DNA of 48,995 nt from Thermomicrobiales bacterium (GTDB taxonomy: Bacteria > Chloroflexota > Chloroflexia > Thermomicrobiales > UBA6265): NCBI GenBank assembly GCA_020432165.1, contig JAGQGU010000044.1, positions 1-48,995 of the forward strand, read 5' to 3'. Made by a program: the position numbers and the translations under genes. Positions within the stretch are counted from its first letter, which is position 1, and each line of letters starts with the position of its first letter. Below, piece by piece: positions 12,431-19,867 of this stretch. The notes beneath the pieces were generated by a model, which was not told where the DNA came from, searched no databases, and was given only the letters and a program-made list of their open reading frames with translations.

Positions 12431-12943
12431 CTACGTAATTCTCCGGATCGGCACCCACCATTCCCACCTGCTGCCGTGCTCGGTGTTGGTATTCTCGACT
12501 TCGATCACGTTGATCTGACTTCCCGGTCCATCGAATCGTTCATAGCCTTCTGGCATTGGCGCGGTTTCCTGATACGCCTTCGTGTACCAAAGACCGTTTT
12601 CTCCCGAGGCTTCCTCTGCATCCTCCATCCAGTCGGTGGTAACTACAAGGTATTCACGGGCAGGATATTTCCCAAGGACGTACCCCTCTGGTACCTCGTC
12701 GATGTCGCCGACAATCGTTCCAGGTGTGTAGGTAATACTTTCGGAGTTATTGTTGTGATAGAGAATCATACAGGTGTATTGATACAGCCCATGTTGAGCG
12801 TTTATCTCGTATCCACCCGATCCGATGAAGTCTCCCCAGACCGCTCCCATGTCCGAGTCCAGCGGGTACTCTTTACCCAGGAACAGGAATTCATCATGCT
12901 TCGTTTGGAAAGTTTTGATCGCTGGTCTGCTGTCGTCTGCCAT
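12431..12943 (-). CDS. Probable GyrI-like / AraC effector-binding-domain protein
   Basis: The 170-residue acidic protein has no signal peptide or membrane segment. The segments DMGAVWGDF, KYPAREYLVVTTDW and the ending WEWWVPIRR resemble stand-alone effector-binding (GyrI/Cass2-type) domains. These bind small hydrophobic or cationic ligands without a DNA-binding domain. The call rests on pattern recognition only. The ATG at 12943 has GAGAGG about 6 nt upstream. The gene lies alone between an intact and a decayed copy of tRNA-Ser(GGA), so it may have been acquired. An antisense frame of similar length (12419-12949, plus) has no such features and is treated as a shadow. Confidence 0.6.
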   Translation of the reverse strand: MADDSRPAIKTFQTKHDEFLFLGKEYPLDSDMGAVWGDFIGSGGYEINAQHGLYQYTCMILYHNNNSESITYTPGTIVGDIDEVPEGYVLGKYPAREYLVVTTDWMEDAEEASGENGLWYTKAYQETAPMPEGYERFDGPGSQINVIEVENTNTEHGSRWEWWVPIRRIT

Positions 12944-13040
12944 CGCTAGCCTCTCGTATCTTCATCCAATCTCTTGTAAGTGTAGAGTAGATGAAAACGC
13001 AAAAACGCGAGCCTTGCCAGGTTCGCGTTTCTGCTTACGG

Positions 13041-13129
13041 CGGAGGGGGCGGGATTCGAACCCGCGAAGGGTTTAACCCCTTACACGATTTCCAATCGTG
13101 CGCACTAGGCCGGACTATGCGACCCCTCC
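13041..13129 (-). tRNA. tRNA-Ser(GGA)
   Basis: The cloverleaf has acceptor GGAGGGG (13129-13123) pairing with CCCCTCC and discriminator G at 13041. The anticodon stem CACGA/TCGTG closes loop TTGGAAA, giving anticodon GGA (UCC/UCU codons). The long variable arm is typical of type II tRNA, and the T loop is TTCGAAT. The genome reads CCG after the discriminator, so CCA is added post-transcriptionally. Confidence 0.96.
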
Positions 13130-13163
13130 TTGCGCCGATGTATTGTACCGCAATCGCTGCGGC
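13060..13163. repeat. Direct repeat, copy B (most of tRNA-Ser(GGA) plus spacer)
   Basis: This is the intact partner of copy A at 12288-12391. It covers the tRNA from the T stem to the 5' end and the 33-bp spacer to the neighbouring tRNA-Ser(CGA). Confidence 0.85.
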
Positions 13164-13249
13164 GGAGAGGGCGGGATTCGAACCCGCGGTGCCTTTGACA
13201 GCACACTGCTTTTCGAGAGCAGCACCTTAAACCACTCGGACACCTCTCC
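13163..13249 (-). tRNA. tRNA-Ser(CGA)
   Basis: Acceptor GGAGAGG (13249-13243) pairs with CCTCTCC; the discriminator is G at 13163. The anticodon stem CTGCT/AGCAG closes loop CTCGAAA, anticodon CGA (UCG codon). A long variable arm is present. CCA is not encoded (CCG follows). Confidence 0.96.
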
Positions 13250-13292
13250 GCGCGAGATTGTACCAGTTTGGCGGCACTCTGTCACAGATATG

Positions 13293-13880
13293 CTAGGACG
13301 ACACGGTGTATCGGTTGAAAGTGACGGCGGTGTTCTCGAGGATGCCATCCAGATCCCGCAGAATGGGCAAGCGGGACATCGTATCGGCAAATGGTGCCAG
13401 CTTGAGTGAAGCATGGCGTTCTGCCATTGTGGCGGCAACTCTTTCGATCATACGCACCGCCCGGTCTTCGCCCTGAGCTTCGTATTCGGATAGCGCGAGA
13501 GTAATCAGCAGGCTTTCATCCTGAGCCGCCAGAATGGCACCACGAGCATCTTCGCCGTTAACTGACGCTGTGACCCAGATGGTCGCAACGTCTCCGTACA
13601 GACCATCACGCTCGCTCATGCTGCCGATTCTATCGGTGGGCATATCAGCGATGTTGACCGCAGCGAGACCCTCATCTGTGACATTAGCGAGTTCATCCAC
13701 GGCGATGTCATAACCGTTCATCGCGGTGTCCGCGAAAACAATCGCCCAGGCAACGAGACGGATTCGCTCGCCGGTGGAGGGGACATCTCCCGCTATCTCG
13801 CGATAGCCATATTGCAGTGAGCCGATGGTTGGATCGAGCGTGGCGGCGGCAGATTCCTGAAGAAGGTATGTTGGAACCAT
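13293..13880 (-). CDS. Conserved-looking protein of unknown function
   Basis: The 195-residue soluble protein starts MVPTYLLQES at an ATG with AAAGGAG 8 nt upstream, a strong site; the frame is open further upstream but unsupported. It has no Cys, no signal peptide and no membrane segment, and is rich in Ala, Asp and Glu. I do not recognise a family. Its placement downstream of the TfoX-like gene on the same strand, between tRNA genes, gives no functional clue. The good ribosome site and distinct protein-like composition argue that it is real. Confidence 0.75.
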   Translation of the reverse strand: MVPTYLLQESAAATLDPTIGSLQYGYREIAGDVPSTGERIRLVAWAIVFADTAMNGYDIAVDELANVTDEGLAAVNIADMPTDRIGSMSERDGLYGDVATIWVTASVNGEDARGAILAAQDESLLITLALSEYEAQGEDRAVRMIERVAATMAERHASLKLAPFADTMSRLPILRDLDGILENTAVTFNRYTVSS

Positions 13881-13954
13881 GGTGCGTGCTCCTTTGTGTG
13901 GGAGCCTCAGTATAGCGGACTCATGGTCAATTTCTCGCGGTCCGTTGCTCTCCG

Positions 13955-14230
13955 TCACTCGCAGCCCGGTTGTTCGATCTGGTGGTCCTGATAGAACTCA
14001 TGGAGACTGGTGCGGGTCGCGAGATCGAGATGATGCCAACGCATACCCTGGATGGCTCCCTCCAGCGCGGAGAGGCGAGATAGGCATGCCGAGGGATCAA
14101 TCTGCTGAATGCGCAGCCACGCCTCTCTGGAACCTGTCCCCCGCAATTGCTCAAAGGTCGTGATACCAACTGCTTCGAGTTGACTCGCCGTATCCCTGCC
14201 GATATTGGGGAGTTCTTCCAGTTCGCTCAT
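13955..14230 (-). CDS. TfoX C-terminal-domain protein
   Basis: The 91-residue protein begins MSELEELPNIGRDTASQLEAVG, a helix-hairpin-helix-like opening, and continues with SREAWLRIQQIDPSACLSRLSALEGAIQGMRW-type sequence typical of the TfoX C-terminal domain (PF04994). Stand-alone versions are widespread; TfoX itself links to competence regulation in proteobacteria, but that role should not be transferred. Two in-frame ATGs exist (14236, 14230). The second has GGAGG 9 nt upstream and gives the family start. Confidence 0.85.
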   Translation of the reverse strand: MSELEELPNIGRDTASQLEAVGITTFEQLRGTGSREAWLRIQQIDPSACLSRLSALEGAIQGMRWHHLDLATRTSLHEFYQDHQIEQPGCE

Positions 14231-14275
14231 GCGCATGTGCCTCCGTTTGGCCGGAGTGTACCACGCGAAAACACG

Positions 14276-14301
14276 AAAGCCGTCTCAATCGAGACGGCTT
14301 T
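14276..14301 (-). terminator. Terminator after tRNA-Arg
   Basis: AAAGCCGTCTC / GAGACGGCTTT form a perfect 11-bp stem with an AATC loop, 8 bases beyond the CCA of tRNA-Arg on the minus strand. It has A/T tracts on both sides, so it could act in either direction. Confidence 0.85.
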
Positions 14302-14309
14302 GTGTATGC

Positions 14310-14385
14310 TGGTATGCCCGGTAGGAATCGAACCTACGGCCTTTGGGTCCGCAACCCAACGCTCTATCCCCTGAGCTACGGGCAC
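14310..14385 (-). tRNA. tRNA-Arg(GCG)
   Basis: Acceptor GTGCCCG (14385-14379) pairs with CGGGCAT, with a G1-U72 wobble; discriminator A at 14313; CCA encoded at 14312-14310. The anticodon stem TTGGG/CCCAA closes loop TTGCGGA, anticodon GCG, reading CGC/CGU arginine codons. The T loop is TTCGATT. GCG at this position is less usual in bacteria than ACG. Confidence 0.93.
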
Positions 14386-14435
14386 ATGTGCGTGCGAGGC
14401 ACAGTATAGTGCGCTTTGCTATAGCGCTGCAACTG

Positions 14436-14528
<93 letters not shown>

Positions 14529-14544: not shown

Positions 14545-15591
14545 CTACCAGATTATCTGGCCCGGCGTCGACGTTTCGGAACCCAATTCTTGGGAATCAT
14601 CCTTCGAGACCCGTGATGAGGCGACCATTCTGCTGTGGCGGCGATGGAGCAGCTGTGTCAACAGTGTTAAATGCGGGAACTCAAGCAGCATACCGACCAC
14701 CAGGGCCGCATAGATCACCGGTTGATCGGGTATCGCCACCATCGTGATGGCCAGCATGAGTGGTGCATTGCGAGCGGCCGTGCTCATGCTCAGCAGGGCA
14801 TGGTTTTCATACGAAAGATGCAGACGATTGCTGATTCCTTCGGCCAGAAACCAGGTGCAGACAAAGAAGGTGAAGACGGCTGCGAGGATATACGGCACCA
14901 AGTTCGCCTGCTCCAGAATCGTGCTGATGTTCGCTGCGAAAACACAAACGACGACCAACAGGATCGCAATCATGGAAAGCCCCGATATTCCTCTGGAGAG
15001 AGGCTTTTTGACACTCTCTGGCGAGTAGTGACCTACCAACTGGATCACTGCCGCGATAATCACCGGAATCACGAACCACCCGTAGATCGTCTCGCCGGTC
15101 TGCGATATCTGGGTGGATACCTGATTGGGTGTGAACAACCAGATATAGATCGGGTAGAGCGCCAACTGCGTCGCCATGGAGATGGGGATGAACATCATGC
15201 CCAGAGCTGTGTTGCCCTTTGCCAGTCGGGTGAAACTCAGAAACCAGTCGGTACATGGACTCATGAAGTAGATCACAAGACCAATCATGGCCAGCTCGTG
15301 TCCATGCAGGAACACCCTGGCCAATCCATACCCCAGAAACGGGATGACGGCGAAGTTGGCGATCCACAAAGCGATGAGAACCGGTCGATCCTGTCGACTC
15401 AGCCTGACCCGGGAGAATGGCACTTCCGCGAAGAGGAGTGTCACCAGGGCCAGGATGGTGAAATCGAGCCAATCATCGGCGAATGATGAGATGCGCGCCG
15501 ATGATTGGCCGAGCAACGAGCCGACCAGAATCGCGCCAAGGAGCATGAATGTGTGCGTGTACTTTCGGAAGAGACTGGTGAGCCTAGGCAT
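14545..15591 (-). CDS. ACR3/BASS-family transporter, candidate arsenite efflux permease
   Basis: The 348-residue integral membrane protein has about ten hydrophobic helices, the fold of the bile acid/arsenite (BART) superfamily. The segment MSPCTDWFLSFTRLAKGN aligns with the ACR3 signature whose Cys is needed for As(III) transport; that Cys is present. The start is ATG 15591 with GGAGG 6 nt upstream, overlapping the flavoprotein stop by 8 nt, so the two are coupled. The C-terminal 30 residues are polar and probably cytoplasmic. Arsenite is the best guess for substrate, but sequence divergence from classical ACR3 leaves other metalloid or anion substrates possible. No arsR or arsC of the arsenate-reductase type is adjacent. 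Confidence 0.75.
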   Translation of the reverse strand: MPRLTSLFRKYTHTFMLLGAILVGSLLGQSSARISSFADDWLDFTILALVTLLFAEVPFSRVRLSRQDRPVLIALWIANFAVIPFLGYGLARVFLHGHELAMIGLVIYFMSPCTDWFLSFTRLAKGNTALGMMFIPISMATQLALYPIYIWLFTPNQVSTQISQTGETIYGWFVIPVIIAAVIQLVGHYSPESVKKPLSRGISGLSMIAILLVVVCVFAANISTILEQANLVPYILAAVFTFFVCTWFLAEGISNRLHLSYENHALLSMSTAARNAPLMLAITMVAIPDQPVIYAALVVGMLLEFPHLTLLTQLLHRRHSRMVASSRVSKDDSQELGSETSTPGQIIW

Positions 15592-16942
15592 GAGCGACCT
15601 CCGCATCTTCGCGGGCGTCTACGGCCTCGTCACAACAATCCTCGCCGCTTTCTCCGCAGGCACATCCTGAGCCGTGTTCTTCCAGCCACGCATCACAGGC
15701 CGAGCAGAGCCCTCGTTCGGGTAGTTGCAGCACGATTTCGTTCGCCGATTCGTCGTCGCAAAGTTCAGCCACCACCGATCGCACTTGCTCATATCCGGTA
15801 TAGAGCAGGAATGTGCCGCAACGACCATAGCTTTTGCTGCCAAGAATGAAGAAGTCCGGTTCTGGTTGGCGCAAGCGATCCACACCATGCGGCGGCACCG
15901 TCCCGCAGGCGTTCCGGTCTGGATCAATGAGTTCGGCGATGTTGTACACGCATTCGAAGATCGAGAAAATCTCTGTGCGGAGTTCCCGTTCGATTGTGAG
16001 ATCGGGCTGAAATCCGGTACAGGCGACGATGCGATCGACAACGGGAAGTTCCCCCGTCGCTGACTCGATACGCAAACCCTCGTCGGTGAGCGCCACATCG
16101 GTGATGCGCACGCCAGTGAGGAGTTGAACCTTACCGCTTCTCACCAGCTCCCGCGTGTCCCGACGAAGCAATGTCCGTTCGTTGAGAAACGAGTCATCGC
16201 CACAGGCATCGCTTTGTTCGTCCCGACGAATCGCCCAGTAGACCTGGGTGTCTGGTTCGGCTTCGGCCAGGGCAACGAGATCGCGGACGACATTCATCGC
16301 CGAGTGACCGCTGCCGACGACGAGGGTGCGTTTCCCCGCATACGTCGCGTGTTGAACGCCGAGAACATCCGGGATGCCATATTCGATGCACGTCGCGAGT
16401 TCTGCTGTATCGCGGAGGGGGAGACCATTGGCGAGGATAGAGTTTGGATGTCCCCACGTTCCACTGGCATCGATAACAGCGCGGCCATAGAAGCGCTGGC
16501 TCTCGCCGTTGACATCGCAGACTACCTCGAAAGGTGCTGTGCTGCGGCGATCTTCGGTGATGCCAATGCTCTGGCGGGCGATTCCCGTCACTCGGTGAAC
16601 GAGGCGAATGTTCGGTTGGATCTCGGGAAGGTTCGCCAATGGCACCAGGTAGCGATCGCGTAGTTCACTCCCTGTTGGATAGTCGTCATCGGATGGCGGA
16701 GCCCATTTGGTGATCTCGAGGAGCTTTCGCGCGACAGGATCGATATTGTACTGCCACGGTGTGAAGAGCTTCACATGTCCCCATGCGCATTGCGATGATC
16801 CGACGGTGTCGGCCTGATCGAAAAGGATGAATGGTTCGTAACGGAAGGCCAGATGTGCCGCCGCCGCCAAACCGATTGGACCCGCACCGATAATGATGAC
16901 GGGCAGCTCGTTGTAAGCCTCAGTGCTGAGATAAACAGACAT
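15584..16942 (-). CDS. FAD/NAD(P)-binding monooxygenase-like protein with Cys-rich tail
   Basis: The 452-residue flavoprotein has an FAD Rossmann motif VIIIGAGPIGLAAAAHL near the N-terminus, a second dinucleotide motif TLVVGSGHSAMNVVRDL in the middle and an ATG-type motif VACTGFQPD. The overall fold resembles flavin monooxygenases encoded in some arsenic islands (ArsO-like); the reaction is unknown. The last 50 residues contain seven Cys (CSAC, then CAC, then CC), mixed with Asp/Glu, a possible metal- or metalloid-binding tail. The start at 16942 (SD-like GGGA) is preferred over ATG 16975, which lies inside a palindromic operator candidate. It is coupled to the downstream ACR3-type transporter. 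Confidence 0.8.
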   Translation of the reverse strand: MSVYLSTEAYNELPVIIIGAGPIGLAAAAHLAFRYEPFILFDQADTVGSSQCAWGHVKLFTPWQYNIDPVARKLLEITKWAPPSDDDYPTGSELRDRYLVPLANLPEIQPNIRLVHRVTGIARQSIGITEDRRSTAPFEVVCDVNGESQRFYGRAVIDASGTWGHPNSILANGLPLRDTAELATCIEYGIPDVLGVQHATYAGKRTLVVGSGHSAMNVVRDLVALAEAEPDTQVYWAIRRDEQSDACGDDSFLNERTLLRRDTRELVRSGKVQLLTGVRITDVALTDEGLRIESATGELPVVDRIVACTGFQPDLTIERELRTEIFSIFECVYNIAELIDPDRNACGTVPPHGVDRLRQPEPDFFILGSKSYGRCGTFLLYTGYEQVRSVVAELCDDESANEIVLQLPERGLCSACDAWLEEHGSGCACGESGEDCCDEAVDAREDAEVAHA

Positions 16943-16973: not shown

Positions 16974-17034
16974 ATCGATAATATTGATACTAAGTATCAA
17001 TATTATCGATATATAGTATCACAATGATTGATAC
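16974..17034. promoter_or_regulatory. Large palindromic operator candidate for the flavoprotein-ACR3 operon
   Basis: Positions 16974-17010 form a perfect palindrome with 18-base arms around a single A. Beside it, GTATC (17016-17020) and GATAC (17030-17034) form a further inverted pair. In all, four GATAC-type half sites lie in 51 bp of AT-rich DNA directly upstream of the operon. An ArsR/SmtB-type repressor is the likely ligand given the operon content. This is inference; no regulator gene is adjacent. Confidence 0.7.
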
Positions 17035-17075: not shown

Positions 17076-17109
17076 AAAAAGACCCCACTCTCAGCCTGAG
17101 AGTGGGGTC
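17076..17109 (-). terminator. Terminator of ilvD
   Basis: A 13-bp perfect stem (17081-17093 with 17097-17109) has a GCC loop. On the minus strand it is followed by TTTTT (complement of 17076-17080). It lies 15 bases past the ilvD stop. Confidence 0.93.
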
Positions 17110-18968: not shown

Positions 18969-19111
18969 GAGATGTGTGCTTTCTTGTGAGTGAACGAGTA
19001 TGGCCGATGCGGAAGATCGGCTCTGCCTATGGCTTCAATAGTACGCCCATCTGCAAGGTGGCGAAAGAGAGGGGTGGAAAGGCGACAAATGAAGGGAGTA
19101 CACTCATGCGC

Positions 19112-19201
19112 GGAGGGGTGCCAGAGTGGACGATTGGAGCGGTCTTGAAAACCGTCGCGGTGTCAAAGCCGCCGCGGGTTCGAATCCCGCCCCCTCCGCC
19201 A
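19112..19201 (+). tRNA. tRNA-Ser(UGA)
   Basis: Acceptor GGAGGGG (19112-19118) pairs with CCCCTCC; discriminator G at 19198; CCA encoded at 19199-19201. The anticodon loop CTTGAAA gives anticodon UGA (UCA and other UCN codons). The variable arm is long and the T loop is TTCGAAT. Confidence 0.96.
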
Positions 19202-19252
19202 CCTCGCCCGTGGGTGCAACCTGACTCGCCGTCAGTCGGCTGGAGGTACGCC

Positions 19253-19867
19253 ATGAGCTTTTGGAACGACCGTTATGCTGGCAAGAACTACGTTTTCGGT
19301 CGCGAACCCGCTGATTTCCTGATAGATCACAAGGACTTTTTCCAGCCCGATCAATCGGTGTTGGCTGTTGCTGACGGTGAGGGACTCAATGGTGTCTACC
19401 TGGCTCGTCTTGGTCTGCATGTGCATTCGGTGGATGGCTCCGAGAATGCGCTTGCCAAAGCTCGCCAACTCGCCGACGAATATGATGTGACCATCACCAC
19501 CGAGTTGGCTGATCTTAAGGATTGGGAGTGGCCAACTTCGGCTTACGACATTGTGCTCGGCATCTTTATCCAGTTTGCTGATCCTGAATGGCGCTCGCAG
19601 ATGTTCGCCGGTATGAAGCAGGCATTGAAGCCGGGCGGAGTGCTCATGCTCCACGGTTATCGTCCTGAGCAGGTGTGGAACGGCACCGGCGGCCCAAGCG
19701 ATCCCGAGTATATGTATACCGTCGGGTTACTTCGCAGCGAGTTCGCTGATCTCGATATTCTGGAAATCTATGCCGAGGACAAAATCGTTGCCGAAGGCGT
19801 TGCTCACCGCGGACAGTCTGCCCTCATCAGTCTGATTGCCAGGAAACTAATCTCCGATTCCGTATGA
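19253..19867 (+). CDS. SAM-dependent methyltransferase (class I, TehB-like)
   Basis: The 204-residue protein starts MSFWNDRY at an ATG with GGAGG 6 nt upstream; longer frames would run through the tRNA gene. Motif I reads VLAVADGEGLNGVYLARLG, with Asp-Gly-Glu-Gly in place of the usual Gly-x-Gly-x-Gly. Motif II is HVHSVDGSENALAKAR, and the later ALKPGGVLMLHGY is the standard post-motif strand. The family includes thiopurine- and tellurite-type methyltransferases; the substrate here cannot be told. It is a single gene between tRNA-Ser and convergent serS. Confidence 0.85.
   Translation: MSFWNDRYAGKNYVFGREPADFLIDHKDFFQPDQSVLAVADGEGLNGVYLARLGLHVHSVDGSENALAKARQLADEYDVTITTELADLKDWEWPTSAYDIVLGIFIQFADPEWRSQMFAGMKQALKPGGVLMLHGYRPEQVWNGTGGPSDPEYMYTVGLLRSEFADLDILEIYAEDKIVAEGVAHRGQSALISLIARKLISDSV

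Follow-up and report, generated by a model that had tools for sequence, protein, structure and literature searches.

A divergent ArsV-like flavoprotein with a conserved Cys-rich tail is encoded by a gene overlapping that of a BASS permease in a Thermomicrobiales bacterium

Introduction

The flavin monooxygenase ArsV oxidises methylarsenite as well as antimonite, and in the ArsV-ArsK and ArsV-ArsW systems the exporter belongs to the MFS type. Passages of two papers cite ArsV for the oxidation of organoarsenicals and antimonite and ArsW for the extrusion of methylarsenate (PMC10080717, PMC9144182), and an excerpted account of Achromobacter As-55 places arsV among the genes induced under Sb(III). 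A flavoprotein gene is likewise clustered with an ACR3/BASS-type exporter gene in the ArsO-ACR3 systems of Streptomyces FR-008 and Rhodococcus BCP1. In Bacillus subtilis, the flavoprotein CzcO is said to aid the metal exporter CzcD (PMC12607644), a role that brings to mind the pair studied here. Finally, BASS permeases annotated as "arsenic resistance protein" are known from Planococcus and Staphylococcus plasmids, and in the three records examined their genes form no operon with a flavoprotein of the family considered here. To our knowledge, the conserved Cys tail of the ArsV-like flavoenzymes has so far no mechanistic explanation.

Here we describe a gene pair, P0001-P0002, in a 48,995-nt stretch of DNA (the window; contig JAGQGU010000044.1 of assembly GCA_020432165.1) from a Thermomicrobiales bacterium. 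P0001 is a divergent representative of a widespread family of flavoproteins, which has a conserved disordered tail and lies mostly in ars neighbourhoods, and its gene overlaps that of a divergent BASS permease, P0002. Most likely, the pair consists of an ArsV-type oxidase bearing the Cys tail of its family and a divergent BASS exporter that has become its new partner. It resembles ArsV-ArsK/ArsW in its flavoprotein family, the ars neighbourhood of its homologues, next-in-line exporter gene and Cys tail, but differs in having a BASS permease, no adjacent arsR, a very divergent sequence and extra Cys. ArsO belongs to a different family from P0001, and the BASS arsenic resistance proteins share the PCTDW, ARNSP and E motifs with P0002.

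Results

Layout of the locus

The features of the locus are collected in Table 1. The original prediction gave the interval of P0001 correctly; the gene lies on the minus strand, as the plus-strand frame is interrupted there by stops. The longest ORF of P0001 opens at 16975, within the palindrome, and 16942 is the likelier start. For P0002, ATG 15591, which has GGAGGT five bases upstream when the DNA is read by eye, is likewise a likelier start than 15606. The two ORFs overlap, as had been predicted, and from ATG 15591 the overlap with the P0001 stop amounts to 8 nt, which suggests translational coupling of the two genes. Upstream of the pair stand ilvD, a terminator-like repeat and then the palindrome, and the repeat likely separates ilvD from the pair. 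No match to a sigma-70 promoter was found on the minus strand before P0001.

Table 1. Coordinates of the P0001-P0002 locus and its flanking elements in the window
Feature	Position	Strand	Evidence
ArsV-like NAD(P)H/FAD flavoprotein P0001, 452 aa	15584..16942	-	ORF call, family searches, predicted fold
BASS-fold permease P0002, 353 aa ORF, likely start 15591	14545..15606	-	ORF call, profile searches, predicted fold
Cys118 codon of P0002	15255-15253	-	
Glu309 codon of P0002	14682-14680	-	
Disordered Cys-rich C-terminal tail of P0001, residues 411-452	15587..15712	-	pLDDT, conservation
Cys346 codon of P0001, sole body Cys invariant across the family	15905..15907	-	alignments
37-bp perfect palindrome, probable repressor operator	16974..17010	.	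two arms of 18 nt around a 1-nt spacer
GC-rich inverted repeat following ilvD, likely ilvD terminator	17081..17109	-	T run in DNA

Downstream of the pair are tRNA-Ser and tRNA-Arg genes. Within about 6 kb the window holds four tRNA-Ser (gga, cga, gct, tga) and one tRNA-Arg (13039-14528 and 19112-19201), and a same-genus genome has the identical set in identical order. Two further ORFs were recorded: a class I methyltransferase with a Pfam match to TehB (tellurite resistance), divergent from ilvD (18974-19867), with a possible but uncertain link to metalloids, and an ORF matching the integron-associated effector-binding protein Cass2 (12431-12943).

Identity of the flavoprotein

None of the curated NCBIfam models matched P0001 above its cut-off. 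The best, ArsO (NF040505), scored 49.7 bits (cut-off 425), and bacillithiol disulfide reductase YpdA (TIGR04018) scored 30.1 (cut-off 339.9). One cluster of Streptomyces FR-008 encodes both an ArsO (554 bits) and, as a distinct gene with an MFS gene after it, a homologue of P0001, so P0001 is not ArsO. The cofactor motifs are intact, and G19, G21 and G24 of the FAD motif (GxGxxG) and G210, G212 and S214 of the NADPH motif (GxGxxA/S) are invariant over 45 rows. In a fold search, the body of P0001 was nearest to YpdA and to the N-hydroxylating monooxygenases SidA/PvdA; the original description as a flavoprotein is supported.

Over its full length, P0001 is homologous to proteins encoded between arsR and arsK on Rhizobium (46% identity) and Ensifer (42%) plasmids; the arsK-linked transporter of Ensifer scored 513 against an ArsK model cut-off of 400. 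We take arsR-flavoprotein-arsK to be the gene arrangement of ArsV, and these arsK-linked flavoproteins are presumably ArsV. From this gene arrangement we infer that P0001 is an ArsV-type NADPH/FAD monooxygenase. While a search of genome contigs with the single P0001 sequence found no homologue, an alignment-based search did; the family is widespread over many phyla.

The Cys-rich tail

P0001 has Cys at positions 52, 142, 185, 247, 308, 331, 346, 375, 395, 413, 416, 427, 429, 436 and 437. Of the seven Cys that had been claimed for the last ~50 residues, six lie there and the seventh, Cys395, is upstream of the tail, whereas the described arrangements are all present as CSAC (413-416), CAC (427-429) and CC (436-437). 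The tail is charged, and Cys 416, 427 and 429 are additional to the family-conserved tail Cys; the body contains nine Cys, where the family median is two. For six Cys in residues 411-452 the binomial probability is 3.9e-6 if Cys makes up 1% of residues and 1.7e-7 if it occurs at the family body rate. Conservation is the better test of the tail, and across the homologues the tail is indeed conserved.

Cys346 and Cys413 are retained in all 30 flavoproteins formed by P0001 and 29 phylum-survey homologues, and the two Cys of the CC pair in 29 each. Cys346, Cys413 and Cys436 are invariant in a 16-row alignment spanning several phyla, and Cys346, where the relatives' motif is HSCGTV, in 45/45 aligned rows. 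The wider survey covered 112 loci, 32 from surveyed genomes and the best 80 of 386 alignment-search matches, which lean to close relatives. A GVC-type anchor Cys was present in 111 of them, and among these 111 a tail CC occurred in 105 and at least three tail Cys in 109. Cys density over the 112 loci was 11.6 per 100 residues in tails and 0.58 in bodies. The short or altered ORFs L123 and L124 were retained in the homologue counts, and ORF starts were taken as the first ATG/GTG/TTG, so that homologue N-termini are often overlong. The Cys-rich tail is thus, by its conservation, a trait of the family and not peculiar to P0001, and the possibility raised with the original prediction, that the tail Cys would be unconserved, is not borne out.

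The structure model of P0001 has a mean pLDDT of 85, with values under 50 at residues 411-420 and 426-452; the model leaves the tail disordered and so does not place the Cys cluster near the flavin. To see whether the tail also occurs as a module in other proteins, the 58 tail residues of the Ensifer homologue were searched over plasmids by BLAST, a search limited by the low-complexity filter. It gave 19 records; several rows lacked annotation, and the annotated rows were flavoprotein genes, one also touching arsK. PMC6514093 describes vicinal Cys pairs that form the MAs(III) sites in ArsI and in one type of ArsR.

Gene neighbourhoods of the homologues

For neighbour counts, the duplicates L111 and L154 (of L057 and L058), which are included in the 112 loci above, were removed, leaving 110 distinct loci, and markers were called by BLAST (E 1e-6) against reference proteins. 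Within 5 kb we found ArsR in 73 loci, MFS (ArsK-like) in 63, ArsC in 42, ArsN1 in 22, ACR3 in 16 and ArsH in six. At least one of ArsR, ArsC, ACR3, BASS, ArsN1, ArsH or an ArsK-type MFS was present at this distance in 97/110, which speaks against the non-metal contexts considered with the original prediction; the remaining 13 had none of the ars markers within 5 kb, several of them on short contigs. Fourteen further loci of the same order had an ArsR-type gene in 13 cases and an MFS gene in nine.

In 69 of the 110 loci, the flavoprotein was immediately followed by an ORF of 150 aa or more on the same strand. By Pfam, 44 of these 69 genes matched MFS_1, and by BLAST none was BASS/ACR3, bar one chance-like 38-residue match (E 0.001). 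A BASS/ACR3 gene occurred anywhere in 17 homologue loci, never less than 428 bp from the flavoprotein. Lysinibacillus pFN9A has a P0001 homologue and a BASS gene as convergent neighbours; on plasmids of Arthrobacter and Cytobacillus a few kb separate the two genes. On Firmicutes plasmids, a small conserved protein of ~68 aa lacking a Cys cluster is encoded directly downstream of the ArsV-like gene (L034 7281-7490, L035 7260-7463, L096 6299-6505).

No MFS gene adjoins the P0001-P0002 pair, and no ArsR match was found on the window's contig; 15 ArsR-type matches lie elsewhere in the genome. By gene content, the unusual feature of the locus is that a very divergent BASS permease replaces the usual MFS partner, with no adjacent arsR.

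The permease

The original description of P0002 as an ACR3/BASS permease with the signature Cys holds for BASS, by Pfam and fold, and for Cys118, but not for ACR3. P0002 matches SBF/BASS (PF01758) with 65.3 bits against a cut-off of 24.3, while ACR3 proper (TIGR00832) gives 69 against 282.8 and the ACR3 motif NNFELA is absent. The second SBF protein of the genome, encoded on contig C21, is a genuine ACR3 (413 bits) with ArsR-like genes nearby. P0002 retains Cys118, in SPCTDW, and Glu309. The conserved Cys and Glu are discontinuous-helix residues in ACR3; they are common to all 37 compared BASS/ACR3 rows and are therefore not specific to ACR3.

The nearest proteins are the arsenic resistance proteins of Planococcus (31% identity) and Staphylococcus (29%), and among 61 genomes of the order and 158 of the class the best relative reached 28%. 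The placement of P0002 in the tree is unsure because of its very long branch. The model (pLDDT 69) adopts an ASBT/NTCP fold, and the solved BASS relatives returned by the fold search are bile-acid transporters, one of them pantoate-bound.

The palindrome

The palindrome contains two ATCGAT/ATTGAT dyads, a pattern with one other match in the whole window. In three relatives of the order, TATATCGAT...ATCGATATA palindromes lie upstream of the ArsV-like gene, in the ArsR-ArsV intergenic region, and one order relative shares the 12 bases TATATCGATAAT, read by eye, with the window. These palindromes and shared bases suggest that 16974-17010 is an ArsR-type operator. The inner core, TGATAC-N3-GTATCA, has further exact sites in the same genome, among them sites on contigs C31, C53 and C105 (L195-L198), which could represent a regulon; since the core lies beside other genes, the regulator may sense another metal. 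Judged by reading the ORFs, some of these sites precede genes whose products resemble redox enzymes or lipoproteins that bind metal. For the ArsR next to the genome's ACR3, the closest sequences are ArsRs from ArsV-like loci of relatives, a weak likeness of 45.6% over 68 residues.

Divergence and the variable slot

P0001 forms the longest branch in a 56-row flavoprotein tree that includes the Rhizobium pC6.5c protein (L033), at 2.11 against a median of 0.4. By the 16-row alignment, near-invariant residues are lost at two places, GGG becoming ACG near 247 and GRAPTF becoming GRCGTF at 375. Together, the branch and the lost residues suggest that the substrate of P0001 may have changed relative to the family.

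In the same-genus genome the flanks match the window, with 77% DNA identity on the ilvD side and 97% on the tRNA side, and the corresponding slot between them holds no trace of the pair. The slot is thus a variable one, in which the window has gained the pair or the other genome has lost it, and in that genome (L224 7151-9325) it carries fragments of DDE_Tnp_1-associated and pRiA4b ORF-3-like genes beside the tRNA genes.

Discussion

The arrangement of a redox enzyme with an exporter had been put forward as an uncommon detoxification pair; the coupling of a flavoprotein and an exporter is, however, the known ArsV-ArsK/ArsW pattern. What is worth testing is the exporter swap and the conservation of the tail. 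The comparisons above establish fold, conservation and gene neighbourhood, and from them we infer the substrate of P0001, the function of its tail and the export direction of P0002. The pair probably detoxifies arsenic- or antimony-type poisons, and with moderate confidence we regard it as a two-gene detoxification operon of an ArsV-type oxidase and an exporter, with capture by the tail and a repressor at the palindrome. The palindrome would be occupied by a repressor, likely of the ArsR/SmtB type and acting in trans, that is released when the metalloid appears. Cys413 and the CC pair 436-437, together with the three extra Cys found here, could then trap antimonite or trivalent arsenicals in thiolate form, raising the local metalloid concentration at the flavin site, where the invariant Cys346 might serve as a landing ligand. 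The C4a-(hydro)peroxyflavin of P0001 would oxidise the trivalent metalloid to its pentavalent form, and P0002 would export the oxidised product or leftover trivalent species in place of the MFS exporter (ArsK/ArsW) of most relatives.

The pair could instead act on a different soft metal, or on an organic compound such as a thiol adduct, with P0001 acting as a YpdA-like reductase of disulfides or low-molecular-weight thiols and P0002 as an organic-anion mover. The best PDB fold matches of P0001 are bacillithiol disulfide reductase YpdA, the solved BASS relatives transport bile acids and one carries pantoate, and the palindrome core is common to sites beside other genes, yet the YpdA model score is far below its cut-off, the homologue neighbourhoods are ars-rich and P0002 retains the PCTDW and E motifs found in arsenic-annotated BASS proteins; we therefore think this unlikely, though deserving of some weight. 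That the locus is a decaying, recently arrived relic, in which P0001 has since diverged under less than full constraint, would fit its long branch, its lost near-invariant residues and the variable slot, which a transposase remnant occupies in the same-genus genome. Such decay is quite improbable for two open, overlapping frames with an intact palindrome, in which the FAD/NADPH motifs, Cys346, Cys413 and CC436-437 are all kept.

A different role for the tail alone, as a storage or chaperone element passing the trivalent metalloid directly to the permease and not to the flavin, is rather doubtful. The predicted disorder and C-terminal position of the tail would allow it, as would the gene overlap and the published description of vicinal Cys pairs as MAs(III) sites, but homologues retain the tail beside quite different MFS exporters, and a specific contact with the permease is therefore unlikely to be what is conserved. 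The broader proposal, that capture by the tail presents metalloids to the flavin throughout the family and is here re-paired with a BASS exporter of the oxidised or trivalent product, we put forward as speculative and of low probability; if it is true, the BASS "arsenic resistance protein" clade gains a defined role.

Should the detoxification operon be confirmed, it would mean that ArsV-type oxidation can couple to an exporter of a different superfamily. It would also provide a testable substrate for BASS permeases annotated merely as "arsenic resistance protein", and would draw attention to the conserved Cys tail in a flavoenzyme family of many phyla.
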